Assembly (NCBI GenBank): GCA_003602595.1
Contig: QQRX01000028.1
Coordinates: forward strand, 1-35,504
Direction: 5' to 3'
Source: Candidatus Poseidoniales archaeon
Lineage (GTDB): Archaea > Thermoplasmatota > Poseidoniia > Poseidoniales > Thalassarchaeaceae
DNA length: 35,504 nt
Positions within the stretch are counted from its first letter, which is position 1. Each line of letters starts with the position of its first letter. Below the pieces are notes generated by a model that was not told the DNA's origin, searched no databases, and was given only the letters and a program-made list of their open reading frames with translations. Positions 14,681 to 29,333 of this stretch are shown here, in pieces. Both the position numbers and the translations under genes were made by a program.

Positions 14681-17377
14681 ATGAGGAACAATTCTGTAGT
14701 CACAATTTTGATTACTTTGATGCTGATTACTATATCTTTACCTCTTGTTTCAGCTTCTGTCAACGTAACTCTGTCTGCTTCTCCAACTAGTCAGTCAGCT
14801 TCATCGGGAGATGATGCAACTTATACAATAACCGTTTCAAATTCCGGAGAAGATGATGCCACCATATCATTGAGTACATCCCAAGCAGCAGAATGTAACG
14901 GCTACACTTCTTCTTTAGCCGATCAAGTACTTACTGTAAATGGAGGAAGTAGTGAAACTACTGAACTCACAGTATCCCTTTCTGATACTGCAGGAGATAG
15001 TTGTGAAACTACCGTCTCCGCTACTGCTGTTGGAGCCACACCTGGAGATCAAGACTCAGATTCTATTACTGTTGAAACAACTAATGAAGACGGAGGAGGG
15101 CAATATTCAGTCCAAATTTCCGTCAAGAATGATGACCCTCAAGTAATAAATTATGATAGTGAAGAAGATGGCGATCAAGTCAAATGGGAACTTATTGTAG
15201 AAAATACTGGAGAACAATCTTCTGCAATGCAAATCGAAATCACATCAGACGGCGATTGTGATTCAGATGGTTTATCTGCCAACTCAGATAAACAAACTAC
15301 AGGAAATCTTGGTTCTGGAGATACAGAGGAAGTAGAAATAACGGTTGATGTCCCAGATGAAGGAGCGACCGAAGCAGATTCACATTGTTTCATAGTTCGA
15401 GCAACAGTAACTCAAGATCCCAATGCCGCCGACAGAGCTGAAGATAACATTACATTAACTCTCCAAATTCCTGAAATAAAAGAATGTGAGGCATCTCTTA
15501 GTAAATCCTCTCATACTTTAGATCCATCAGAGTCTGCATCCAATTCACTTTCTATAACAAATATTGGAAACACTGACTGGACTGCAACTGCCAATGCTGC
15601 CTCCGATGACGGTGATATCAAGGATTGGATTTCTTTTGAAGGAGCTCAATCTAAAACACTAACTGAACCGGGCACTTCTCAAGATTCACACACATTTCTA
15701 TTTTCAATAACTCCAGATGATTCGGTTGAGCCTGGGACGGTTCAAATAAAAATTCAAGCAAGAGCCGGGGTCGCAGTTGCATGTCAAGAAATTTTGTATA
15801 TTACTTTAGGACAGAATAAAGATGCTTCTTTATCACTTAGTAATCAAAGGGTATCTAATGTTCAGCCAGGCACTACAGAAAGAGTAGAATTAACTGTTAA
15901 GAATACTGGTAACGGGCAGGACACATTCGCAGTTGGAGCTTCAAATTTACCCACTGGTTGGCAAGTTACAATGTCTCAAAGCAGCGTCACCATCAATGGA
16001 AGGCATTGCGGACCAAATAATTGTAATACACAAATCTTAGATGCAGATATACAAGTTCCTTCCGGAGCACTAGCTAACATCCAATATGAAATTGAATTCT
16101 ATGTCAATTCGGCAGGTACACAACATGATTTAATACCTTTAGAGGTCACTGTAGCGGCAATTCATTCTGTAGATACCTCTCTAACTTCAGATTCTCAAAC
16201 AGGTAAATTTGCACAAATTGTGAAGTTCCCCTTGACTATTGAAAATACAGGTAATATTCGTGATACATTTGTTTTGGATGTTTGTAATCCTAATATAAAT
16301 TCTTCATGTTCTTCTCCTGCTTGGAACGCTTCTTTTTCTAATTCCCAAGGTAATACAATTTCTACAATCACTCTAGATCCATCTGAATCTTCAGATATAT
16401 TTGTTGATGTAGTAGTTGAAGATCCTTTTGACAACAGTGAAGAAGCATTTGAGGTAAGAGTAGGAATTATGGGTTCATCATATGTATCTACAGAAATAGT
16501 CAGAGTTACAGTTTCCAATTATAATTACAGTATGGCAATTTCTTTCCAGAATCCAGGAGACGATCCTTCCAGTGCTTCATTATCGCTGCCTCCGGGTGGA
16601 GGATATGGAACATTCTTTTGGATTGATAATACGGGAAATGGAGGAATAGATGATGCAATTATTACAGTTAGTGGAATGGAATCTTCTGTATTCCATACAA
16701 TTAAAGTTGATGGAGTTATTGCCGATGATGAGATTTCAATTCCATCCGATTCTAGAGTTCTAGTTGAAGTTGAACTGGAAGTAATAGAGGGCGTTGAAAG
16801 TGGAATTTCTGGATCAATAAGTGTCAGTGTATCTTCGAAGAAGAATACGGCTCAGGTTTCATCAATTAATTTCAATATAGATGTGATGGTAATTCATGAT
16901 TTACAATATACTTTAGACGCAACTCCAGAAGAAATAACGATTAAATATCCAAATAGAGCGACATTTATTGTTTACGTTACAAACAATGGAAACTCAGAAG
17001 AAAAGGTAGAAGTCATCACTCCTGCACCTTTACGTCAATGGTCAGTCGATGTAGTTCCTGATGATTTTATTTTGCAACCAGGTCAGACTAAAGAAATAGA
17101 AATCAGAGTCACACCCCCCGTCGGATTAAAAGATGACGATACTTACAAATTTACAATAATCATTCAGCCAGAAGATACTCCTGTTGCTGGAGAGCCGCTT
17201 GAATTAATTGTTAATGCTGATATTTCAACAATTAGTTTAGCCAATAATTTAGCAGGACAAGTCCTACTCTATGGTGCAATGTTAATTGGTTCAATACTCC
17301 TCATTTTGGTATTTTTAAGGGCAAGAAAAGAAAATAAAATCATCAATGAAGCCTTGTTACTTAAGCAAGAAGATTGA
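14681..17377 (+). CDS. Membrane-anchored multi-domain beta-sandwich surface protein with paired cysteines
   Basis: This 898-aa protein has a signal peptide (residues 5-26, core VVTILITLMLITISLPLV), then about seven consecutive CARDB / NEW3-like beta-sandwich domains of 100-130 residues with recurring NTGN and LxPGxTxE turns. A C-terminal transmembrane helix (about 858-879) and a short basic tail (RARKENK) close it. The first five domains each hold exactly two cysteines (C72/C108, C193/C236, C269/C368, C443/C448, C535/C543), as expected for intradomain disulfides outside the cell; the last domains have none. ATG 14681 is preferred over TTG 14678. It is probably a cell-surface structural or adhesive protein, possibly an S-layer-associated one; no enzymatic motif is seen. 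Confidence 0.8.
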   Translation: MRNNSVVTILITLMLITISLPLVSASVNVTLSASPTSQSASSGDDATYTITVSNSGEDDATISLSTSQAAECNGYTSSLADQVLTVNGGSSETTELTVSLSDTAGDSCETTVSATAVGATPGDQDSDSITVETTNEDGGGQYSVQISVKNDDPQVINYDSEEDGDQVKWELIVENTGEQSSAMQIEITSDGDCDSDGLSANSDKQTTGNLGSGDTEEVEITVDVPDEGATEADSHCFIVRATVTQDPNAADRAEDNITLTLQIPEIKECEASLSKSSHTLDPSESASNSLSITNIGNTDWTATANAASDDGDIKDWISFEGAQSKTLTEPGTSQDSHTFLFSITPDDSVEPGTVQIKIQARAGVAVACQEILYITLGQNKDASLSLSNQRVSNVQPGTTERVELTVKNTGNGQDTFAVGASNLPTGWQVTMSQSSVTINGRHCGPNNCNTQILDADIQVPSGALANIQYEIEFYVNSAGTQHDLIPLEVTVAAIHSVDTSLTSDSQTGKFAQIVKFPLTIENTGNIRDTFVLDVCNPNINSSCSSPAWNASFSNSQGNTISTITLDPSESSDIFVDVVVEDPFDNSEEAFEVRVGIMGSSYVSTEIVRVTVSNYNYSMAISFQNPGDDPSSASLSLPPGGGYGTFFWIDNTGNGGIDDAIITVSGMESSVFHTIKVDGVIADDEISIPSDSRVLVEVELEVIEGVESGISGSISVSVSSKKNTAQVSSINFNIDVMVIHDLQYTLDATPEEITIKYPNRATFIVYVTNNGNSEEKVEVITPAPLRQWSVDVVPDDFILQPGQTKEIEIRVTPPVGLKDDDTYKFTIIIQPEDTPVAGEPLELIVNADISTISLANNLAGQVLLYGAMLIGSILLILVFLRARKENKIINEALLLKQED

Positions 17378-17460
17378 CCATACCTCACAACGCTTGCCGG
17401 ATACACTTATGTTCCGTTTTCAGGTGGCCACGTTTGTCGACCTCTAGTGCGACGTGTGGT

Positions 17461-17913
17461 GTGAGTGTGTCTGTGCCTGAAGATTATATTGCGGTAGCCG
17501 TTATGGCCCTTGTCGGTATTGGTTTTCCAATAGGGAGTTTCATTGGTTCGAGACTTCTTAGGCCTACTCCAAATTCCAATGATAAATCACAACTAAGCTC
17601 ATGGTTATTACCTGGTTATGAGACCGATCAAAGTCTCTACATTCGTCGAGATAGCACCTATGAGTGCGGTTCCGAACCTGTCGGAGATGCAGACATAAAT
17701 TTCCACTTTCAATATTATTGGTATGCAATAATTTTCCTTGTTTTTGATATAGCATTTATGTTTCTAGCATTTGGAGGAGTTATTACAGTACAAGATAAAA
17801 TATTGACAACATCAGAAGTATACAGCGCTTTACTGACCCTTTCAATCTTCATTATTTTAATGAGTCTTGGCGTTTGGCATGTTTTTAGAAAAAGAGGCAG
17901 AATTTACATATGA
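17461..17913 (+). CDS. nuoA: Complex I subunit A (NuoA/NdhC/FpoA)
   Basis: This roughly 150-aa membrane subunit has three predicted helices (about residues 7-30, 83-107 and 117-140). The family signature is present: FPIGSFIGSRLLRP after helix 1, YECGSEP before helix 2, then HFQYYWYAIIFLVFDIAFMFL. It helps form the joint between the membrane and quinone-reducing arms. The start is uncertain: in-frame GTG codons at 17461, 17467 and 17473 all sit just before helix 1, and an upstream TTG at 17374 would add a tail unlike the family. The loop between LLRP and YECG is about 31 residues, clearly longer than usual. It is the first gene of the complex I operon. Confidence 0.9.
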   Translation: MSVSVPEDYIAVAVMALVGIGFPIGSFIGSRLLRPTPNSNDKSQLSSWLLPGYETDQSLYIRRDSTYECGSEPVGDADINFHFQYYWYAIIFLVFDIAFMFLAFGGVITVQDKILTTSEVYSALLTLSIFIILMSLGVWHVFRKRGRIYI

Positions 17914-17931
17914 GGAATTATTATGGCAGAA
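17910..17931 (+). repeat. 22-bp direct repeat, copy 1 (nuoA/nuoB junction)
   Basis: The junction contains the nuoA stop TGA, an overlapping GAGG Shine-Dalgarno, a short spacer, the nuoB ATG and its first codons (MAE). All 22 bases are identical to 19191-19212 at the nuoC/nuoD junction. Confidence 0.8.
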
Positions 17932-18522
17932 GATGGTCAAAATTATACTATGTTTAGTAGTCGAATGTTAATAGATACTGTTGGAGATACAACCGATGCA
18001 GCGCTTGAAGCAAGTGGCCTCAGAGACGTCATAGGAGTTCTTGCAGGAAGACTATTCAATTGGGGTCAAAGAAAATCTTTGTTTCCTTTACACCTAGGTA
18101 TCAAATGTTGTGCATTAGAAATGGCTGCTGCTGGTGCTAGCCGTTTTGATGCAGAGAGATTCGGTGTTTTCTTCAGATCAAGTCCAAGGCAATGTGATGT
18201 TTTACTCGTCAATGGTCCAATAAGTAAGAAATTTGCTGATCCAATAGTTCGCCTATGGGAACAAATGCCTGAACCAAAATGGTGTATCGCAATGGGAGAA
18301 TGTGCTATTTCAGGTGGTCCATACTTTCAATCTTACAATGTTCTTGAAGGTGTCGATACTGTAATACCCGTTGACATTTATATCCCAGGCTGCCCACCTC
18401 GTCCTGAAGCACTTATTGATGGATTTGGCAAGTTACGTGAAAAAATAATCCGTATAGGAGCAGTACCTAGTCATTCAAGAACTGATAGCACAGCTCCAAT
18501 AATAATTGGGGATGAACAATAA
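17923..18522 (+). CDS. nuoB: Complex I subunit B (NuoB), N2 iron-sulfur cluster protein
   Basis: This 199-aa peripheral-arm subunit holds the terminal 4Fe-4S cluster N2, which passes electrons to quinone. All four ligand cysteines are present: C62 and C63 in GIKCCALEM, C127 in MGECAISGG and C157 in YIPGCPPRPEALIDG. The adjacent-cysteine pair is diagnostic for this subunit. The ATG at 17923 follows GAGGAATTATT, where the GAGG overlaps the nuoA stop codon. The N-terminal 40 residues are more variable, as is usual. Confidence 0.97.
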   Translation: MAEDGQNYTMFSSRMLIDTVGDTTDAALEASGLRDVIGVLAGRLFNWGQRKSLFPLHLGIKCCALEMAAAGASRFDAERFGVFFRSSPRQCDVLLVNGPISKKFADPIVRLWEQMPEPKWCIAMGECAISGGPYFQSYNVLEGVDTVIPVDIYIPGCPPRPEALIDGFGKLREKIIRIGAVPSHSRTDSTAPIIIGDEQ

Positions 18523-18540
18523 AGAATAAGGGGTATTACT

Positions 18541-19194
18541 ATGAGTGTTGTTTCACAAGAATCTCAAATCTCTTCCGCAGAAGATTTAGCACAAAAACTA
18601 AACTCTGTTGATGGAGTTTCTTCTTTTGTAGATCAACGTTCTAGTGGAACCCAAACAAGACCAGTAGTTAAATTACAAGTATCTTCAGAAAATTGGCGAG
18701 AAGTTGCTGAATCACTATACGTTGATCATGGGGTAGATTATTGCTCAATGATAACTGGTATTCATTGGCCTGACTCAAAAGATAAAAATTGGGAAATAAT
18801 ATATCATTTCCTTAGGACAGGAGTCAAAAATCCTCCTCATAGTGATGGAGTAGTACAACCAATAATAACCAATAATTCTGAGTTAAAAGGTTCTGATGTA
18901 CCCTTGGAATTAGAAGTGACTATTCATTTAGGAGATACCCGTACTCCATCAGTTGCAAGCATTCAAGACATTTGGGTTGGAGCAGATTGGAATGAGAAAG
19001 AAACATGGGATTTAGTAGGGATTGATTTTGAAGGTCATCAAGGAATGCGCCGCGTCTTACAACCTCATGAAACTCCAAAGGGCTATCACCCACTACAAAA
19101 ACAACATAAACTTAGATATCATAACTTCCAAGAAATGTATGATGATGCTCAGGGTTTCAAAAGAAAACCAGTCGACTCTGAGAGGGTTAAATGA
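18541..19194 (+). CDS. nuoC: Complex I subunit C (NuoC, 30-kDa subunit)
   Basis: This 217-aa subunit of the quinone-reducing arm contacts NuoD. The family motif is clear: DIWVGADWNEKETWDLVGIDF followed by EGHQGMRRVL, equivalent to the canonical ERExYDLxGIxFxGHPxLRRIL. The N-terminal half (residues 1-110) has the usual alpha/beta region with VDYCSMITGIHW. nuoC and nuoD are separate genes here, unlike the fused nuoCD of enterobacteria. A GGGG-containing Shine-Dalgarno lies in the 18-base gap after nuoB. Confidence 0.93.
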   Translation: MSVVSQESQISSAEDLAQKLNSVDGVSSFVDQRSSGTQTRPVVKLQVSSENWREVAESLYVDHGVDYCSMITGIHWPDSKDKNWEIIYHFLRTGVKNPPHSDGVVQPIITNNSELKGSDVPLELEVTIHLGDTRTPSVASIQDIWVGADWNEKETWDLVGIDFEGHQGMRRVLQPHETPKGYHPLQKQHKLRYHNFQEMYDDAQGFKRKPVDSERVK

Positions 19195-19212
19195 GGAATT
19201 ATTATGGCAGAA
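19191..19212 (+). repeat. 22-bp direct repeat, copy 2 (nuoC/nuoD junction)
   Basis: These 22 bases are identical to 17910-17931. The copy again spans a TGA stop overlapping GAGG, the AATTATT spacer, the start ATG and the first codons MAE. Confidence 0.8.
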
Positions 19213-20340
19213 ATGTGGATTTCAATGGGGCCACAACATCCTATGACGCATGGATTATGGACTTTGAAAGTAAAAGTAGACGGTGAAACTGTAGTAGATA
19301 CAGAACCTGATTTAGGTTATATTCACAGAGGTGTTGAGAAAATTTGTGAATCTAGAGATTTCACACAAATAACTACCTATTGTGATCGTTTATGTTACGC
19401 AAGTGCAAATACTTGGTCTCATGCATATATCTATGCAGCTGAAGATTTACTAGGCGTCGAAGTTCCTGAAAGAGCAGAGTATATCCGTCTAGTTGCGGTC
19501 GAATTACAACGTTTAGCCAGCCATTTGATGTGGCTGGGAGCATATGGTCCAGATATAGGAAATCTCAGTGTAATGGTCTGGTGTCTGCGTGAAAGAGAAA
19601 TGATGATGGATCTGCTACAAGAATTGGGTGGTTCAAGAATGCACTACAATTTCCCTCGAGTTGGTGGTGTAAAAAGAGATCTTCCACATGGTTTTGCTAT
19701 GCGAGCTAGACATAAACTATCTCTTTTCTTAGATCGAATTCAAGAATATGAATCTCTTTTTGATGAAAGTACAATTTTCCTTGTTAGAAGTCAAGGTGTT
19801 GGATATGCCAAACCAGAAGAAATGATAAATCATGGCGTATCTGGTCCTAATCTTCGTGCCGGAGGAGTAAATCATGACATTAGAACATCGCACCCTTATT
19901 CTGTTTATTCCGAATTAGATTGGACGCCAGCAGTCGAAAGATCATCAATAAAAGGTGCAGACTGTTATGATAGATATAGAATTAGAGTAGAGGAGATGCG
20001 TCAAAGTGCTGGTTTAGTTTTGCAAGCACTTGATAAAATGCCGGGAGGAGCGGAAACATATCATGAACCAGGAGATCCAAAAATACTAGCAAAAGCGCCT
20101 TCAAGGGCACCAGAAGGGACGAGTGGATCGCATCATTTTGAAGATAGTAGAGGCGAATCAATGTTCTACATAGCCGGGGGCGGCGAAGGTAGAGGTAAAA
20201 TGCCATACAGGGTTTCTATAAGGTCACCTATGTTCATTACGATTCCATATGCGTCTAAATGCATGATTGGTTACAAAGTTGCTGACATTCCAGCAATTAT
20301 GGGTTCATTTGATCCTTGTATAGGAGAAACAGATAGGTGA
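19204..20340 (+). CDS. nuoD: Complex I subunit D (NuoD, 49-kDa subunit)
   Basis: This 378-aa subunit, related to the large subunit of NiFe hydrogenases but without Ni ligands, forms the quinone pocket with NuoB and NuoH. It begins with the quinone-loop motif MGPQHPMTHGLW (residues 8-19). It continues through DLGYIHRGVEKICESR, DRLCYASANTWSHAY and ELQRLASHLMWLGA, and ends with the typical IMGSFDPCIGETDR. A roughly 20-residue Pro/Gly/His-rich stretch (about residues 283-318) before FYIAGGGEGRG is longer than in common homologues. The start follows the repeated TGAGGAATTATT element that overlaps the nuoC stop. Confidence 0.96.
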   Translation: MAEMWISMGPQHPMTHGLWTLKVKVDGETVVDTEPDLGYIHRGVEKICESRDFTQITTYCDRLCYASANTWSHAYIYAAEDLLGVEVPERAEYIRLVAVELQRLASHLMWLGAYGPDIGNLSVMVWCLREREMMMDLLQELGGSRMHYNFPRVGGVKRDLPHGFAMRARHKLSLFLDRIQEYESLFDESTIFLVRSQGVGYAKPEEMINHGVSGPNLRAGGVNHDIRTSHPYSVYSELDWTPAVERSSIKGADCYDRYRIRVEEMRQSAGLVLQALDKMPGGAETYHEPGDPKILAKAPSRAPEGTSGSHHFEDSRGESMFYIAGGGEGRGKMPYRVSIRSPMFITIPYASKCMIGYKVADIPAIMGSFDPCIGETDR

Positions 20341-20344
20341 TTAA

Positions 20345-21841
20345 ATGACTAGTACTGATTGGTTAGATATTCGTGGATGGTCTGAATCAATCATTGGATG
20401 GTCAATGGATACAACTCACGATTTATTACCTAACTCAATACAAAATGATTTTGCACAAATACAACCAGCATTAGAATCCTTTTTCTTGGCTACAGTGATG
20501 TGCACGGTGGTATTTGCAATTATGATGCTTACACTCATGGTTGTCCCATACATAGAACGTAAATTTATTGGAAGATTAATGGACAGAATTGGTGCTACAA
20601 CTTCATTACGCAGTCTTTGGATTGGAGAAGGAAGTGCAACTGCAGGAGATTGGTGGAATAAATTACCTATGGGGATGGGCACTCCAATAGGTTTTGTAAA
20701 TGCTAAATTGAACCAATCATTCGGTAATGACCATCCTCATGAAACTATTTCAAGGGTTAATAATAGAGGATATCATGGTATTTGGTTTCTATTCCCAGGC
20801 TTTTTCCAAGCATTAGCCGATTTTCTAAAATTCGCCACAAAGGAACATATAGTCCCCAAGAAAGCCGATAAATTAGTATTCGAAATAGCACCTGTAATAA
20901 TAATAGCAACCACAATAATGGTTTATGCATTTATTCCATTCGGTCCGCATATTTGGGCGGCAAATCCAGATCTTTCCTTAATTTTCATGATGGCAATTTT
21001 TGGTGTTGCACCATTGGGAGTATTTTTTGCTGGTTGGGCATCTAATAACAAATATACTCTGATAGGAGGAATGCGATCTGCAGCACAATTAACCGCATAT
21101 GAAATACCGCTTCTAATAACCGTTCTGAGTATAGCTGTAATTAGTGGCTCATTCAATATTCTAGAAATCGTTGATTTCCAAATTGAAACATCCAATACTT
21201 GGAATATTTTTATTCTTCCCTTGGGTGCTGTACTATTTCTTGTTACTATGATTGCAGAAGTGGAACGAATACCTTTTGACATGCCCGAAGCAGAAGCGGA
21301 ACTTGTAGAAGGCTGGTGGACCGAATATGGAGGAATACGTTGGGGACTCATGTTTGCCACTGAAATGATGAGGGCTTATGCTGCATGTATCTTATTCGCA
21401 ATGTTCTTTTTAGGCGGTTGGGAGTTTCCTTTCGAAGATTTCTTATCTTCATTGCCACTCTTAGGGGGAATCTTTGAATTAATATTCACTATAATACCGG
21501 GTTTAGTTTGGGTATTACTAAAAGCATGGTTATTATTTGCATTTTTTGTCTGGATTAGAGCATCATTACATCGTATAAGAACGGATCAAATTTTAGAATT
21601 TGGATGGCTTTATCTTCTTCCTTTATCTCTAGTAAATCTTGTAATTGCTACCTTTTTACGTCTTGAAGTTTGGACAGAATCTGGTTGGCCCATATGGGCC
21701 GCGCCTGTTCTCACAATTACTGCATTATTTTTCTTTGTAGTATACGCTATTGATGAAGATGAAGAAGCATTATCACAATCACGCCGTCCATACAGTACAC
21801 AGACTTTATCTAAGGCATATCCCGGTACTCAGGAGAAATAG
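20345..21841 (+). CDS. nuoH: Complex I subunit H (NuoH), with an enlarged first loop
   Basis: This 498-aa membrane subunit forms the quinone channel; typical NuoH is 320-400 aa. Conserved parts are the first helix (about 45-68) and ERKFIGRLMDRIG (71-83), then GFFQALADFLKFATKEH (152-168). Later come the acidic quinone-loop motif EVERIPFDMPEAEAELVEGW and EYGGIRWGLMFATEMM, and a C-terminal helix followed by an acidic/Ser tail. About 60 residues (84-143) are inserted between the ERK...RIG motif and the LADxLK motif, where standard proteins have only some ten. The N-terminus also has about 40 extra residues. The start lies four bases after the nuoD stop. Confidence 0.94.
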   Translation: MTSTDWLDIRGWSESIIGWSMDTTHDLLPNSIQNDFAQIQPALESFFLATVMCTVVFAIMMLTLMVVPYIERKFIGRLMDRIGATTSLRSLWIGEGSATAGDWWNKLPMGMGTPIGFVNAKLNQSFGNDHPHETISRVNNRGYHGIWFLFPGFFQALADFLKFATKEHIVPKKADKLVFEIAPVIIIATTIMVYAFIPFGPHIWAANPDLSLIFMMAIFGVAPLGVFFAGWASNNKYTLIGGMRSAAQLTAYEIPLLITVLSIAVISGSFNILEIVDFQIETSNTWNIFILPLGAVLFLVTMIAEVERIPFDMPEAEAELVEGWWTEYGGIRWGLMFATEMMRAYAACILFAMFFLGGWEFPFEDFLSSLPLLGGIFELIFTIIPGLVWVLLKAWLLFAFFVWIRASLHRIRTDQILEFGWLYLLPLSLVNLVIATFLRLEVWTESGWPIWAAPVLTITALFFFVVYAIDEDEEALSQSRRPYSTQTLSKAYPGTQEK

Positions 21842-21853
21842 GAGGTGAATTAA

Positions 21854-22825
21854 TTGAAAAATCTAGAATATAATACAGGACACCCACATGCAACACCAAA
21901 TTTTCGCAATTTAGTTATTAGGCCAATGTGGATTACAATGAAAACTGCTTTACGTACCATTCCTTATATCGGGAAAGCTAAATTTCTCAAAAATGACTAT
22001 CATGCACAAGAAGCAACCATGGTAGATGAATATACAATTAATAGAGTGGGTGAAAATCACCCCTCCGTTGGACAAGTATATTCTGCAGATAGGGAATCCT
22101 CTCCTGCATTACCTTTTTTGGAACGTCCAGTCACTATAATGTATCCATATGAGAGACTAGAAGATATGGAGCCATGGCTTTTCGTTCCAGGTAACTACAA
22201 TGGACGTATAGGAATAGTTTGGGAGACTTGTACTGCCTGTAAAGCATGTGTCAAGGCATGTCCAAATGATTGCTTACACATGACTAGTGAAACAAGAGTC
22301 AATGTTCTTGATACTACAAATGAAGGAGATGAATGGCATGGTTATGGGGGAGAATTAGAAGCTGGTGGTTTAGCAGCCCGTGAGAAAGATAATTTTACTG
22401 AAATAGAAGAAGAGTTTGATTTAGTCCATGCACATGCACCTCCTCCTCAACAATATGATTTTGCAGAAATTATTGATATTTCAGGTGATACTGCTACCGT
22501 TAGATGGCAAGATGGCTCTGGAATTGAAGAAATCAATACTTCGCATCTAAGGCCAGCAGAACAAGATATTGTATCTGGTAGAATCGATTTGGGAAGATGT
22601 ATGTTTTGCGGTTTATGTGCAGAAGCATGCCCTTTCGAATCCTTTTTCATGACAAATGAATATGATGGTATGACTGGATATACGCGTGAACAACTTTGGA
22701 TGGATGCTGACCGTACACGTTTACTTCCAGCAGTTCATCAAGAGCGAGTAGATATGGAATTAGCAAAGAGGGCTCAAAAAGAAAAAATAAAGCGAGAAAA
22801 GAAAGCTGCAAAATTGGAGGCCTGA
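21854..22825 (+). CDS. nuoI: Complex I subunit I (NuoI), 2x[4Fe-4S], with a large insertion
   Basis: This 323-aa subunit carries clusters N6a and N6b; typical NuoI is 160-220 aa. The first cluster motif is CTACKACVKACP (C126, C129, C132, C136) and the second CMFCGLCAEACP (C249, C252, C255, C259). The two motifs are 113 residues apart instead of about 30. The insert (about 150-240) is acidic and His/Pro-rich at first, then holds a short beta-rich unit (about 203-235, EIIDISGDTATVRWQDGSG then HLRPA) resembling SH3-like Tudor/KOW/agenet folds. There is also an N-terminal extension of about 60 residues. The start is a TTG at 21854, supported by GGAGGTG eight bases upstream at the nuoH stop. Confidence 0.93.
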   Translation: MKNLEYNTGHPHATPNFRNLVIRPMWITMKTALRTIPYIGKAKFLKNDYHAQEATMVDEYTINRVGENHPSVGQVYSADRESSPALPFLERPVTIMYPYERLEDMEPWLFVPGNYNGRIGIVWETCTACKACVKACPNDCLHMTSETRVNVLDTTNEGDEWHGYGGELEAGGLAAREKDNFTEIEEEFDLVHAHAPPPQQYDFAEIIDISGDTATVRWQDGSGIEEINTSHLRPAEQDIVSGRIDLGRCMFCGLCAEACPFESFFMTNEYDGMTGYTREQLWMDADRTRLLPAVHQERVDMELAKRAQKEKIKREKKAAKLEA

Positions 22826-22827
22826 TT

Positions 22828-23094
22828 TTGTCTATTGACTTCCAAGCAATTGTATTCGTTATTATGGCCGCACTCGCTATTTTAGGTGCTCTTGGATGTG
22901 TATTCTCTAGGAGGGTAGCACATTCTTTACTCTCTTTAATGCTCACCTTTTTTGCAGTTGCTGGTGTGTTTGTATTAGCTGGTGCTGAGATGTTGGCAGC
23001 AATACAAATCCTTGTTTATCTTGGGTCAGTAATGTTAGTCGTTCAATTTGGAGTCATGCTCACTAGACGTAAGATATTGGAGGTTGACTACTAA
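22828..23094 (+). CDS. nuoJ1: Complex I subunit J, N-terminal half (NuoJ-N)
   Basis: This 88-aa hydrophobic protein has three helices matching the first part of NuoJ: FSRRVAHSLLSLMLTFFAVAG, then the conserved AAIQILVYLGSVMLVVQFGVML, including the helix that carries the pi-bulge in structurally studied complexes. It stops with TAA, whose last base is the first base of the next gene's ATG. The start is TTG at 22828 with GGAGG about seven bases upstream. Split nuoJ genes also occur in haloarchaea, so this is not a frameshift artefact. Confidence 0.88.
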   Translation: MSIDFQAIVFVIMAALAILGALGCVFSRRVAHSLLSLMLTFFAVAGVFVLAGAEMLAAIQILVYLGSVMLVVQFGVMLTRRKILEVDY

Positions 23095-23432
23095 TGAGAA
23101 CAATCACTGCTTTAACTTCTTTAGGAGTATTTATTTTTGTTCTTTTACTTTTACATGAGGTAAACTCACATCCAATGTGGGATACCTCAATTTCTTCTAA
23201 TTCACCAACAACTCTTGATTTTGCAGATTCTATTTTCAATCAATGGGCATTTGCTACCATCATACTTGGAACTCTTCTATCAATGGCAATGATAGGAGCG
23301 TCGTATTTAGTTAGAGATGAACGTTTAATTAACCTTGTATGGGATATTAGGGGAGAGGTAACTGATAGTTTGGAAAACATAGGTACGTTCAAAAGATTCA
23401 ATCGGACTTCAAAACAAAAGGAGGAAGAATAA
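23094..23432 (+). CDS. nuoJ2: Complex I subunit J, C-terminal half (NuoJ-C)
   Basis: This 112-aa protein has two helices (about residues 4-21 and 51-70) that supply the fourth and fifth helices of NuoJ, and a charged C-terminal tail (RFNRTSKQKEEE). Position and topology define it more than sequence motifs do. Its ATG overlaps the nuoJ1 stop (TAATG), with GGAGG at 23079-23083, so translation is coupled. Its own stop overlaps the nuoK ATG in the same way. Confidence 0.8.
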   Translation: MRTITALTSLGVFIFVLLLLHEVNSHPMWDTSISSNSPTTLDFADSIFNQWAFATIILGTLLSMAMIGASYLVRDERLINLVWDIRGEVTDSLENIGTFKRFNRTSKQKEEE

Positions 23433-23734
23433 TGATAGATCCTAGTTGGATAGTAGGCTTGGGTGTTATATTATTCGGTATTGGATTATTAGGTACATTC
23501 TATCACAAAAATGCAATCGTTGTTTTGATGTGTATAGAATTGATGCTAAATTCTGCAAATCTTAATTTTGTTGCTGGAGCAATGTATTATGGGGACGTAA
23601 ATGGTTGGGTTTTTACTGCAATTGCCATAGCTATTGCTGCAGCAGAGGTTGCAATCGGATTAGCAATTCTACTATCGATGTATAGTACTCAACAAACTAT
23701 TTCCTTAGAAGATGCTAATATTTTAAGAAACTGA
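23432..23734 (+). CDS. nuoK: Complex I subunit K (NuoK)
   Basis: This 100-aa, three-helix membrane subunit is related to MrpC antiporter subunits. The two conserved membrane glutamates are present: one in VLMCIELMLNSANLNFVA and one in IAAAEVAIGLAILLS. The length is typical for the family. AGGAGG at 23419-23424 precedes the ATG, which overlaps the upstream stop by one base. Confidence 0.96.
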   Translation: MIDPSWIVGLGVILFGIGLLGTFYHKNAIVVLMCIELMLNSANLNFVAGAMYYGDVNGWVFTAIAIAIAAAEVAIGLAILLSMYSTQQTISLEDANILRN

Positions 23735-23743
23735 GGTGAATTA

Positions 23744-26014
23744 ATGGGCGAAGTAAAACACGAATATCCACTCCTATATCCTCTAATACCTATATTGTTG
23801 TTGGCACCAATTTTAAAATTATTAGGCTGGGAATCTGTAGATGCGGCATTTTTAATTGTCACAATACCATTATTGATATTCCCTACAATCTTAATAATTG
23901 GCCAAATTTATAATAAAAATCCAATATGGAAAAATAAGTGGAAAGAAGGTGGAATTTTAGCACTTGGGGCACTTACGGTATCGTTAACAATAGCACTTTG
24001 GATATTGTTTGATTATTTATATGGTAATTCCAGTTTTTCAAATCAATCTGTAGATACATGGTTTGAATGGATAACTTTTGATTTCTTACAATCTAATTAT
24101 GTCATCTCCCAAGAAAGTCGGATAATAGGCATAGGCGTTTGGATAGATCAAGTTACACTGATGATATTATTTGTTGCAACATTTCTTTGTTTTTTGATTT
24201 GTTGGTTTAGTATGGGTTATATGAATACTGACCCAATCAATGAAGATCGTAACCACCGCTTTTATGCAGAATTCGTATTATTTAGTATGGGCATGTTTGG
24301 AATGGTATTGGCAGATAGCTTTCTTTGGCTTTTCATATTCTGGGAAATAATGGGACTTTGCTCTTATCTGTTAATAGGATTTTATTATTGGAAAGTTAGT
24401 GCTGCATATGCTGCAAAAAAAGCATTTCTCACAACCAGAATTGGTGATGTTTTTCTAATGATTGGTCTATTTATTCTGTATGATATTTATGGCTCATTGG
24501 ACTTTGCAGTAATTTTTGATGATCCATCAACAGGTGTTTCAGGAGCATTAGTCGATTCAAATAAATTGTTTTGGGCTCTTTTACTATTGTTTGTAGGAGC
24601 AGTTGGGAAGTCTGCACAATTTCCACTTCATGTATGGCTACCAGATGCAATGGAAGGTCCTACACCTGTTTCTGCACTAATTCATGCTGCGACTATGGTA
24701 AATGCTGGATTATACTTAGTAGCCAGAATGGTCCCCTTTGTTGATATACATTATCAGGGTGTACCTGGATTAGAAAATCTTGGAATAATCATTGCATTTA
24801 TAGGTGGAATAACAGCATTTATGGCCGCATTAATTGCATTTGTTCAAAATGATATTAAGAAAGTTTTAGCATATTCAACTATGAGTCAATTAGCATATAT
24901 TTTTACTGGTTTAGGGGTTGCTCTTTGGTTTTACAATACTGATCATCACCATGCAGCCATGATAGCATTTGGAGCTTCTATGTTCCATTTGTTCAATCAT
25001 GCAATGGCTAAAGGGATGTTATTCATGGCAAGTGGTTCTGTTATACATGAAGTTCATCATGCACACGATCACATAAGTGAAGGAAATCATAATCACAATT
25101 TTGATCCACAAGATATGCGTAACATGGGTGGTTTGGCTGCGAAGATGCCAATTACTGCAACAGCGATGATGTTTGGTTCTATGTCAATCATCGGCGTTCC
25201 TCTCATCGGTGGTTTTTGGTCTAAAGAAGGAATAATTGCTGAGACATGGAAGGCAGCAATAGAATATGAGCCAATAATGTTTGTACCCGCTATCCTCATT
25301 CTTGCAACTGCAGGTATGACAGGATTCTATATGTCTAGAATGTGGCTAATGACATTTGCAGGAGAGCCAAAAAACGATGTTGTAAATCATGTCCATGAAA
25401 CAACTCCTTGGATTAGAGAACCACTTTTGATTCTTACAGCAATAACGGCAATTAGTGGTTTTGGCTTGGCTTTATTTGACATCATTCATTATCTATCATT
25501 TGACATAGATAATCTAAAAATGAAAGGATTAGTTTACACTTTAGAACATGCATTTTTACCTTCTGATATAAATACAAGAATTATAGGTTGGACAACAATC
25601 ACTCTCTCTTTCATTATTGGGCCAATTATTGCTGCAAGAGTTCATGGAGGTAAACTACAAGAGGGAGAAAAGGCCATACCTACAATTAGTTGGTTAGTAT
25701 CACTTTCAGGTAAATTTGGAAGCCAAGATGTAGATAATATCTCCAAATCACAATTTTCTGAGGCATTACAAAATAGATTATACTTTGATGATTTTTATGA
25801 GTATTTAATCTCAAAAACCGTCATACCATTCGCTAATTTTACTGCATGGTTTGATAGAATAATCATTGATGGCATAATTAAGCAAGTAGAATCTAAATCA
25901 GTGTCTGGATCACTAGAGGTTAGGAAAATAACCACAGGTAGTGCTAAAGATTATATTTTGATGGCAGTAGTTGGTATGATTTCGATCTTCATATTGATTT
26001 GGGGGGTGAGTTAA
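23744..26014 (+). CDS. nuoL: Complex I subunit L (NuoL), antiporter-like
   Basis: This 756-aa subunit is the distal proton-pumping one. The key helix-5 Glu201 lies in FIFWEIMGLCSYLLIGFYYW and Lys289 in VGAVGKSAQFPLHVWLPDAM. GPTPVSALIHAATMVNAGLYL and NDIKKVLAYSTMSQLAYIF are also conserved. Between SVIHEVH and QDMRNMGGL there is a His-rich loop with seven histidines between residues 435 and 451. The C-terminus carries the extended segment expected for the lateral helix and a last transmembrane helix (about 735-754). The start follows TGAGGTGAATTA, where the nuoK stop overlaps the Shine-Dalgarno. Confidence 0.96.
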   Translation: MGEVKHEYPLLYPLIPILLLAPILKLLGWESVDAAFLIVTIPLLIFPTILIIGQIYNKNPIWKNKWKEGGILALGALTVSLTIALWILFDYLYGNSSFSNQSVDTWFEWITFDFLQSNYVISQESRIIGIGVWIDQVTLMILFVATFLCFLICWFSMGYMNTDPINEDRNHRFYAEFVLFSMGMFGMVLADSFLWLFIFWEIMGLCSYLLIGFYYWKVSAAYAAKKAFLTTRIGDVFLMIGLFILYDIYGSLDFAVIFDDPSTGVSGALVDSNKLFWALLLLFVGAVGKSAQFPLHVWLPDAMEGPTPVSALIHAATMVNAGLYLVARMVPFVDIHYQGVPGLENLGIIIAFIGGITAFMAALIAFVQNDIKKVLAYSTMSQLAYIFTGLGVALWFYNTDHHHAAMIAFGASMFHLFNHAMAKGMLFMASGSVIHEVHHAHDHISEGNHNHNFDPQDMRNMGGLAAKMPITATAMMFGSMSIIGVPLIGGFWSKEGIIAETWKAAIEYEPIMFVPAILILATAGMTGFYMSRMWLMTFAGEPKNDVVNHVHETTPWIREPLLILTAITAISGFGLALFDIIHYLSFDIDNLKMKGLVYTLEHAFLPSDINTRIIGWTTITLSFIIGPIIAARVHGGKLQEGEKAIPTISWLVSLSGKFGSQDVDNISKSQFSEALQNRLYFDDFYEYLISKTVIPFANFTAWFDRIIIDGIIKQVESKSVSGSLEVRKITTGSAKDYILMAVVGMISIFILIWGVS

Positions 26015-27648
26015 TGAATCTTGATATTTTAACAATAATTACTCTTGTACCTATTTTTACAGGCCTTATATTAATTATTCTGCCTCAACTTTTACCTAAA
26101 GAAACTGCAGATAATCTAAAATTAATTACTCGAAACATTTCCATGGGAGTCGCATTAGCAATTTTTGCTATTTCTACAATGATTTTTATTGGAACAATAG
26201 GTAGTGTAGATTGGACTGATATTTTACACGGCGAATACGTCTTGAAGAATGAACAATTTTCTCTTATCTCTTCCATTGGCGTCCAATGGAAGGTTGGAGC
26301 AGATGCTCTTTCATTTCCGATGATTTGGCTAACATCATTATTAATTCCAATTTCTATGCTCGTAGAATGGGATGCAAAGAAAGGCCATATCTTCCATCCT
26401 CTAATATTGATTATGGAAGGGGCATTATTGGGTGTTTTCGTTTCATTAGATTTATTCATCTTTTACGTTTTCTGGGAATTGACTTTGATTCCAATGTTCC
26501 TACTGATACTGTTATGGGGTGGTGAAGATAGAAAATATGCTGCCATGAAATTCTTCATTTACACATTTACAGCAAGCGTTTTCATGCTTATAGGCATTCT
26601 AGTGATGTATTTCCACACTACTCCTATACCTGGAATTGGAAGTATGACCGGCCATCATTTTGATTTGGTCCAAATGTCTCTGCAAGATAATTTAATCCCT
26701 AATGAAGGACTTAGACACTTTGTTTGGATACTTTTACTCATAGGCTTTGCAACTAAAATGCCGAGCGTTCCTGTACATACTTGGCTTCCTGATGCACACG
26801 TTCAAGCACCAACAGCCGGATCTATGTTATTAGCAGGAGTTATGCTGAAAATGGGTGCTTATGGTTTTCTTAGAATTGCAGTAACAATCTTCCCAGAATC
26901 TACTATAATTTTTATGCCACTATTAGTCTTCTTAGGGATGGCAAGTCTAGTTTATGGAGCATGGGTGTGCATGGGTCAAACAAATCTCAAGAGAATGGTT
27001 GCATATTCTTCGGTTTCGCACATGGGATTAATTTTCCTTGGTATAGCGACAATGCAACCTCTTGGTATCGCAGGCGCATTATTTATGATGTTTGCACATG
27101 GAGTAATCAGTCCACTACTCTTCGCAGTTGCAGGGGCCTTCAAACACCATTATCATACACTAGAGATTGGTTCAATGAGAGGGATAGCACATCACTCTCC
27201 ATATCTTTCTGGCCATATGATGTTGGGTTGGATGGCTAGCTTAGGACTTCCTTTAATGGCAGGCTTCGTCGCTGAAGTTGCAATATTAATAGCATTCTGG
27301 ATGTCTTTTGGATGGTTAGTTATGCTACCTGCATTAACATTAATCATTACTGCAACATATTATCTAACGTCCATGCAGCGTACGATTTTCGAATCCGACG
27401 ACCCTCATCAAGGAATATTGCCCGCTTCTCTTAATGGTGATGAACCTCGTGATGTGACCTGGAATGAAAATACAGGTATGTTCATATTAGGAATTTTTAC
27501 TATTATTTTCGGTATTTTCCCATTTATTTTCTGGGACATGATGTCTGTATGGAGTACTGGATTTATGTCTGATATAATGATTAGTGCTATGGAAAATACT
27601 GACGCTTGGAGTCCAAGTATAGATTGGATATTGGAGGTATTCAAATGA
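26014..27648 (+). CDS. nuoM: Complex I subunit M (NuoM), antiporter-like
   Basis: This 544-aa, multi-helix proton-pumping subunit has FYVFWELTLIPMFLLILLWG with the helix-5 Glu, then GFATKMPSVPVHTWLPDAHV with the helix-7 Lys. APTAGSMLLAGVMLKMGAYG and NLKRMVAYSSVSHMGLI follow, all diagnostic of NuoM. The ATG at 26014 overlaps the nuoL TAA by one base and follows a GGGGGGTGAG Shine-Dalgarno, so it is preferred over the upstream TTG at 25999. Confidence 0.96.
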   Translation: MNLDILTIITLVPIFTGLILIILPQLLPKETADNLKLITRNISMGVALAIFAISTMIFIGTIGSVDWTDILHGEYVLKNEQFSLISSIGVQWKVGADALSFPMIWLTSLLIPISMLVEWDAKKGHIFHPLILIMEGALLGVFVSLDLFIFYVFWELTLIPMFLLILLWGGEDRKYAAMKFFIYTFTASVFMLIGILVMYFHTTPIPGIGSMTGHHFDLVQMSLQDNLIPNEGLRHFVWILLLIGFATKMPSVPVHTWLPDAHVQAPTAGSMLLAGVMLKMGAYGFLRIAVTIFPESTIIFMPLLVFLGMASLVYGAWVCMGQTNLKRMVAYSSVSHMGLIFLGIATMQPLGIAGALFMMFAHGVISPLLFAVAGAFKHHYHTLEIGSMRGIAHHSPYLSGHMMLGWMASLGLPLMAGFVAEVAILIAFWMSFGWLVMLPALTLIITATYYLTSMQRTIFESDDPHQGILPASLNGDEPRDVTWNENTGMFILGIFTIIFGIFPFIFWDMMSVWSTGFMSDIMISAMENTDAWSPSIDWILEVFK

Positions 27649-29333
27649 ATTCTTTAAGTGATATTTCTTTGGAATTATTATTACCTGAGGCAATGATGAT
27701 TGTTGGTATATTAGCTATGATAATAATTCCCAATTTGGGCGATGCGAAGATTAGAATACCTCTTACCAATACTTCTGTACCAGTATTTTTTGGAGGCACA
27801 AGATTCGCCCAAGTAAACAATCCATTTATTCCAAGCGTAGTTGCAATGATTACCTTTACTGCATCATTCTTTATGTCGTTGATTATGCTTGAAGCAGAAA
27901 CTAATGGTAACATAGGCGAAGTAATGGAGATAAATCAATTCACTAACTTATTTTCATTAATTTTTACCTCCGCCCTACTCATAACATCTATAGCTACCTT
28001 TTACAGGATGCCTCCTCATAAAAATCCTGAAATACCTAAGAATACAGATTCTGAATCTTCTACAGGTACTAAAATAAAAATATTAATGAATAATCGACGT
28101 CAGGTTGACTTTTACATCCTTTTAATGATGGTTGGATTAGGCATGTGTCTTATGTCTAAATCTACACATTTATTCTTACTTTTCGTCTGTCTAGAATTAG
28201 CGTCATTATCTTCATATGTCCTTGTAGGCTTTTATAAGGAAAGTGATATAGGTGGAGAGGCAGGTACAAAATATTTTATTGTTGGCTCAGTTGCTTCTGC
28301 TGTAGGAATATATGGAATGTCTTTACTCTATTTGTGGAATGGAAATCTGCAAATAGATTCTCTAACATCTTCATGGGCGACTATGGAAAGTCTTGATCCA
28401 TTTGCCGGTATTGGCATCGGTTTGATGCTTGTTGCTTTCGGCTTCAAAGTTGGTGCAGCACCCTTCCACCTGGCGACTCCTGATGCATACTCTGGAGCCT
28501 CTTCTCCTATCGCAGGATTACTTGCAACTGCATCTAAAGCAATGGGTTTTGTAGCTATAATGAAAATATTACTCATTATTACATCTTCAGAAGAGGGAAT
28601 AGAAACATATTGGATGGTTGCAATTGCATTAATGTCTGTAATTACAATGACATGGGGTAATTTTGCTGCTTTAAGTAGTGAAAACCCAAAAAGGATGCTG
28701 GCCTATTCTAGTGTTGCTCATGCAGGATACATGCTTGCTGCAATTGCTGCGATTGGAAGCGGACTGGGGGACATAGACTCAAATATTCTGATAGTTACTG
28801 CTGTAATTTTCCATCTGACGATTCTAATTTTATTTAAATTTGGAGCATTCCTAGTTCTTACAATACTTGAGAATGAAGGATTAAGTCATAATATGGATGG
28901 TTTGAAGGGATTAGCAAAGAGAGATCCTGTGATAGCCGTTTCTATGTTTATATTCATGCTTTCTCTTGCAGGGATACCTCCTCTGTCTGGATTCTTATCT
29001 AAATTATTAATGATTAACGGAATAGTAAATGTATCCGCAGGTACCGGTAGTTTATCCTCTGCAACGATATTGACATGGATAACTAGTGTTAATATTATAT
29101 TTTGGTTAGCCCTTTCAATAGTAATCAATAGCGCAGTTTCATTATTTTACTATTTGAGGATAGGTTTGATAATGTTCTTTGAAGAACCGGTAATTGAAGA
29201 ACCTCCAGCAAAATCGATATATCTGAGAATTATTATAATTATTTGCGCTACTTTTACTATCTTATTAGGTATAGGTCCGTTATCGGAATATTTACTCGAA
29301 ATAGCCAATGAAGCTGCTCAATCTTTACTCTAA
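27645..29333 (+). CDS. nuoN: Complex I subunit N (NuoN), antiporter-like
   Basis: This 562-aa proton-pumping subunit has LLFVCLELASLSSYVLVGFYK with the conserved Glu, then GFKVGAAPFHLATPDAYSGA with the pumping Lys, and NPKRMLAYSSVAHAGYML. The segment around residues 105-160 carries a polar stretch (PHKNPEIPKNTDSESSTGTK) that makes the loop before helix 4 longer than usual. The ATG overlaps the nuoM stop (ATGA) and follows GGAGGT at 27632-27637. It is the last complex I gene; no nuoE, nuoF, nuoG or F420H2-oxidising fpoF follows. Confidence 0.95.
   Translation: MNSLSDISLELLLPEAMMIVGILAMIIIPNLGDAKIRIPLTNTSVPVFFGGTRFAQVNNPFIPSVVAMITFTASFFMSLIMLEAETNGNIGEVMEINQFTNLFSLIFTSALLITSIATFYRMPPHKNPEIPKNTDSESSTGTKIKILMNNRRQVDFYILLMMVGLGMCLMSKSTHLFLLFVCLELASLSSYVLVGFYKESDIGGEAGTKYFIVGSVASAVGIYGMSLLYLWNGNLQIDSLTSSWATMESLDPFAGIGIGLMLVAFGFKVGAAPFHLATPDAYSGASSPIAGLLATASKAMGFVAIMKILLIITSSEEGIETYWMVAIALMSVITMTWGNFAALSSENPKRMLAYSSVAHAGYMLAAIAAIGSGLGDIDSNILIVTAVIFHLTILILFKFGAFLVLTILENEGLSHNMDGLKGLAKRDPVIAVSMFIFMLSLAGIPPLSGFLSKLLMINGIVNVSAGTGSLSSATILTWITSVNIIFWLALSIVINSAVSLFYYLRIGLIMFFEEPVIEEPPAKSIYLRIIIIICATFTILLGIGPLSEYLLEIANEAAQSLL

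Follow-up and report, generated by a model that had tools for sequence, protein, structure and literature searches.

The question of where 11-subunit complex I obtains its electrons is still unsettled (PMC11238625), and the nuo operon studied here raises it for Poseidoniales, the archaea found in greatest abundance in surface sea water (PMC8821943). Which donor feeds their complex I, and what part in electron entry could be played by a large insert in the subunit NuoI? In the literature the complex figures as a canonical NADH dehydrogenase (PMC6336850), a label at odds with the absence of the NADH module from the operon and from almost every genome that was scanned. An earlier note, drawn from the DNA sequence of this locus, had proposed that the insert lies between the two 4Fe-4S motifs of NuoI, carries an SH3/Tudor-like unit and could be a docking surface for a non-NADH donor. 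We followed up this proposal in the window, the whole stretch of 35,504 nucleotides from a Thalassarchaeaceae contig (QQRX01000028.1), and in related genomes.

The nuoI gene and its operon

The window carries all of NuoABCDHIJKLMN in one operon, with the following features:

17374..21841, + strand: nuoA, B, C, D and H, upstream of nuoI in the same operon (ORFs, Pfam)
21854..22825, + strand: nuoI, TTG start, 323 aa, two 4Fe-4S motifs
22262..22597, + strand: inter-motif segment of 112 residues (137-248), comprising the hairpin strands and the insert
22301..22369, + strand: acidic lead segment NVLDTTNEGDEWHGYGGELEAGG, residues 150-172, conserved in both families
22370..22561, + strand: SH3-like barrel of the insert, residues 173-236 (AlphaFold, conservation, Foldseek)
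22828..29333, + strand: nuoJ (two ORFs), K, L, M and N, downstream of nuoI (ORFs, Pfam)

No nuoE, nuoF or nuoG was found among the ORFs or by Pfam between nuoD and nuoH, or elsewhere in the operon; nuoM, which lay outside the Pfam scan, was assigned by position and sequence. The NuoF family occurs in 6 of 60 Poseidoniales genomes and the NuoG family in the same 6, away from the nuo operon, and both are missing from the other 54. The complex is thus of the 11-subunit ('headless') kind, with no NuoF or NuoG serving it. Where the NuoF/NuoG pair was inspected (genome G073; L166, L179) the two genes are adjacent, a NuoE-NuoF-like fusion standing beside a formate-dehydrogenase/NuoG-like protein, a type present in 6/60 Poseidoniales. 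NuoJ is encoded by two overlapping ORFs (22828-23432), one matching the N-terminal half of the family and the other the C-terminal half. A Poseidoniales-specific insert of ~60 residues, absent or shorter in other Thermoplasmatota, follows the first transmembrane helix of NuoH (residues about 86-149; 20600-20791).

In the translation of 21854-22825 the two CxxCxxCxxxC motifs that bind N6a and N6b in NuoI/NdhI proteins are intact, with the ligands C126/C129/C132/C136 and C249/C252/C255/C259. The distance from C136 to C249 is 113 residues, which reproduces the gap claimed in the earlier note, and the positions assigned there to the insert (22301-22573) are exactly codons 150-240 of nuoI, with the two motifs it had singled out, VRWQDGSG and HLRPA, both present in the translation. 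The insert, put there at about 85 residues, measures about 65-85 residues; the figure varies with the point at which the ancestral hairpin is assumed to stop, since the sister group MGIII, in the same class, already shows a spacing of 43 residues. The MGIII hairpin has a basic tip (HLAKRKSK) and may represent an intermediate state, the alignment there being too weak for proof. NuoI also has ~50 extra residues relative to other Thermoplasmatota between the N-terminal helix and the first strand (residues about 37-89; 21962-22120).

The best NCBIfam family for the protein is TIGR01971 (NuoI; E 1.2e-19), matched in two split stretches; since the insert divides the match, the score of 70.1 bits falls under the NCBIfam cut-off of 113.05. 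Nothing was recognized between the two halves in the Pfam and NCBIfam scan. The best PDB matches are NdhI/NuoI chains, NdhI foremost, and judged from these matches and the operon the gene is clearly nuoI despite its sub-cut-off score. The closest named relatives of the protein come from Marine Group II and Thalassarchaeaceae genomes.

Predicted fold of the insert

The complete NuoI was modelled with AlphaFold2 from the family alignment (model m43f9f9c919e3). Strands are predicted at residues 173-177, 201-210, 213-218, 224-228 and from 232 onward, with a short helix at 181-187, which together make a predicted five-stranded SH3-like barrel. The pLDDT is about 65-90 over the barrel block and about 75-90 in its strands. 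The mean for the whole NuoI model is 57 and the Fe-S core is poorly predicted, so that the model does not tell where the barrel stands with respect to the clusters. When the insert is modelled by itself the barrel is the same, with the acidic lead segment (residues 150-172) poorly ordered. Foldseek against the PDB, at a probability near 1, matched SH3, KOW, Tudor and designed SH3 barrels as well as NdhO. The earlier description of a Tudor/KOW/agenet-like unit is therefore borne out for the predicted fold but not for the family: an SH3-like barrel is shared with Tudor domains (PHF19 Tudor, TM-score 0.72 by target), whereas the Poseidoniales insert reaches the cut-off of none of the Tudor, agenet and KOW family models (agenet, 14.8 bits against 27).

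Distribution and constraint of the insert

A comparison of NuoI across Thermoplasmatota, of the kind called for in the earlier note, separates the order from the rest of the phylum. The inter-motif spacing is 109-114 residues in Poseidoniales (144 loci, including redundant copies of the same genomes), whereas it is 24-44 in 20 other Thermoplasmatota NuoI computed in the same way. In a search with the barrel profile, the insert was recovered from 123 of the 128 Poseidoniales genomes, nearly always as a single copy, and from both families; the single-contig genome G002 is among them. The five unmatched genomes are drafts, from which the relevant contig is most simply taken to be missing. In the 262 other Thermoplasmatota genomes no match fell below E 1e-3, and three partial matches among them (E 0.002-0.008) look like chance. 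The earlier note had allowed that such an insert might prove common in archaeal Fpo/Nuo proteins; within the phylum, this search found none outside Poseidoniales. This distribution rules out a misassembly or a one-off insert and makes the insert a fixed, order-wide feature rather than a product of chance, and its presence in both Thalassarchaeaceae and Poseidoniaceae indicates that it was fixed before the families split. In one genome (G148, contigs C16 and C14) the NuoI insert occurs twice, and its second copy lies in an open frame of 427 aa.

It is also evident that the insert is constrained. Seven residues (G171, A175, H194, F203, G211, W218 and A235, with G171 just before the barrel) are invariant in 44 diverse NuoI sequences. 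In the same pairs of close relatives, dN/dS is 0.03-0.08 for the insert versus 0.015-0.02 for the flanks, which rules out recent decay or filler. Judged by these substitution rates, the insert is functional sequence under strong purifying selection, somewhat freer than the Fe-S core. In a profile search of the genomes, no protein other than NuoI matched the barrel well, which leaves it without a good paralogue.

The electron entry site and candidate donors

In NDH-1L of T. elongatus, ferredoxin is bound through Lys86/89/91 of the NdhI hairpin between the same two motifs and passes its electron to N6a; around this hairpin lie NdhS, which is SH3-like, NdhV and NdhO (PMC6992706, PMC7021789). The insert occupies this same hairpin, and the idea that it lies near a donor-docking place is thus upheld. 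NdhS makes no contact with ferredoxin in the NDH-1 structures (PMC6992706, PMC7021789), and NdhO lowers the ferredoxin-dependent activity of NDH-1; an NdhO-ferredoxin contact is reported by PMC7021789 and none is seen in PMC6992706, papers that also differ on NdhV. A nearby SH3-like domain therefore need not bind the donor.

The net charge between the motifs averages −18 in Poseidoniales (range −10 to −22). The first part of the insert is acidic, as noted earlier, but the acidity is not confined to it and spans the whole insert (net −18). The hairpin of the relatives is neutral to basic (net −1 to +4) and usually ends in a KRP-like motif (KxxKRP-type), which is gone in Poseidoniales. With a basic hairpin exchanged for one whose net charge is about −18, an acidic ferredoxin is unlikely to dock in the simple way, and the plain form of the docking idea in the earlier note is at odds with this charge. 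The hairpin would repel such a ferredoxin, and the carrier may be less acidic, the domain may gate the site, or the donor may differ.

As for the donors encoded, the FpoF-type family was found in 0 of the 60 Poseidoniales genomes. The POR family (2-oxoacid:ferredoxin oxidoreductase) is present in 58 of the 60, and a supply of reduced ferredoxin is therefore to be expected. Many Poseidoniales genomes encode a small plant-type 2Fe-2S ferredoxin (about 99 aa; L188-L195) whose negative charge is unusually low, with a net charge of +1 in the genome of the window and −1 to −9 in relatives. Going by gene content, a ferredoxin-type donor would be the most economical reading.

We place about half of our confidence in the explanation that the fused SH3-like domain beside N6a shapes and gates the electron entry port of this 11-subunit complex I. 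The domain would hold the NuoI hairpin and set which one-electron carrier can approach N6a, so that one polypeptide would do what the small SH3-like subunits NdhS and NdhO do around the ferredoxin site of NDH-1. The ultimate donor would likely be a ferredoxin reduced by 2-oxoacid:ferredoxin oxidoreductase, and the electrostatics, reversed relative to cyanobacteria, would point to a less acidic carrier or to a domain gating over the site. A donor-docking or gating role that we infer in this way, including the non-NADH donor surface suggested before, is plausible.

Resemblance to NdhO and alternative explanations

Among known structures NdhO appears to be the closest to the insert, which raises the alternative that a true NdhO-family domain was fused into NuoI, perhaps gained from a cyanobacterium or handed down by an older complex I of the ferredoxin type. 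NdhO is the top match of the barrel profile among 177,635 PDB sequences (E 0.14) and the second of the whole-insert profile (E 0.65). By Foldseek against the PDB, it leads the matches of the insert model (E 0.0035, the runner-up at 0.025) and comes third for the full NuoI model (E 0.035). The two share the pattern H-x-x-P-P ... EV-D-GD-A-(V/I)-(K/R)-(W/F), also written EVxDxxGDxA(V/I)(K/R)(W/F), hhalign gives P 1.8e-4, and one insert hits the Pfam NdhO model at E 0.19. Against descent from NdhO, the hhalign probability is 48 over 18 aligned columns only, and the test is weak because the NdhO side consists of only three PDB sequences; no NdhO homologues for a deeper alignment were found in plasmid records or viral contigs. 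The profile of an 11-sequence Poseidoniaceae subset missed NdhO in the PDB, and the Poseidoniaceae consensus prefers Myosin_N SH3-like over it. The Pfam NdhO model (PF11910) stays under its cut-off even for that best-scoring insert, and in the reverse search of whole genomes with this model, also below cut-off, other ORFs outscore NuoI. The insert lies in-frame within NuoI; NdhO is a separate subunit. NdhS was rejected as the closest relative, since its model (PF11623) does not match NuoI; the same model had no match over the cut-off in 21 genomes. NdhO is thus a good functional comparison, but kinship is not proven, and descent from it seems to us improbable. A shade less probable again is the fuller proposal that the insert is a genuine NdhO-type domain, fused and charge-reversed, which defines a ferredoxin-fed complex I in marine archaea; if true, these archaea would share a component of the ferredoxin port so far regarded as peculiar to oxygenic photosynthesis.

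The domain might instead be a structural cap, which packs on NuoI/NuoD/NuoB, shields N6a and stabilizes an arm lacking the N-module, with no say in the choice of donor. The order-specific expansions of NuoI (~37-89) and NuoH (~86-149), as if the arm were padded, fit such a cap, and so do the invariant residues, which are mainly small, hydrophobic or aromatic, like a fold core. However, the charge change of ~20 units falls at the donor site, and other headless Thermoplasmatota complexes manage without the domain; we regard the cap as a possible but doubtful explanation. Docking of something other than a donor, such as an assembly factor or a regulator, would agree with the common binding of peptides by Tudor/SH3-like folds and with the weak agenet and Myosin_N matches. 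It is very unlikely, given that no family cut-off is reached, no partner is known, and the domain is fixed, single-copy and at the electron entry site. Gating of the entry port thus remains the explanation that we favour.

Comparison with known complexes

The 11-subunit complex I is a known kind, and NuoEFG are missing in several other Thermoplasmatota (PMC3750248); a fused accessory domain in NuoI was not found described in the literature searched, which comprised open-licence papers only. A fixed and constrained domain of ~70 residues at the entry cluster offers a handle on the donor question, as it can be expressed and tested for ferredoxin binding.

Complex I of other Thermoplasmatota (Thermoplasma type, MGIII) has the same operon and recognizable identity in NuoB, NuoD and NuoH. 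As this identity is roughly 34-63%, nothing in these sequence comparisons, taken here in place of a tree, suggests acquisition of the whole operon from outside. Their NuoI has a hairpin that is short and basic and, in 18 of the 20 examined, two further 4Fe-4S motifs at the C terminus, which are absent in Poseidoniales; the entry subunit has therefore been modified in two ways within one phylum. The four-motif NuoI, with an extra C-terminal dicluster domain, is found at L145-L162 and L164 except L156, MGIII included, and L156 and L163 have two motifs only.

Fpo (F420H2 dehydrogenase) has in common with the Poseidoniales complex a complex I core with a non-NADH donor, and differs in its FpoF, of a family that all 60 genomes lack. 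Cyanobacterial and chloroplast NDH-1 likewise combines 11 core subunits without NuoEFG and an SH3-like domain beside the N6a hairpin. There, the SH3-like subunits are separate and the hairpin is basic, whereas in Poseidoniales the domain is fused inside the hairpin and is acidic.
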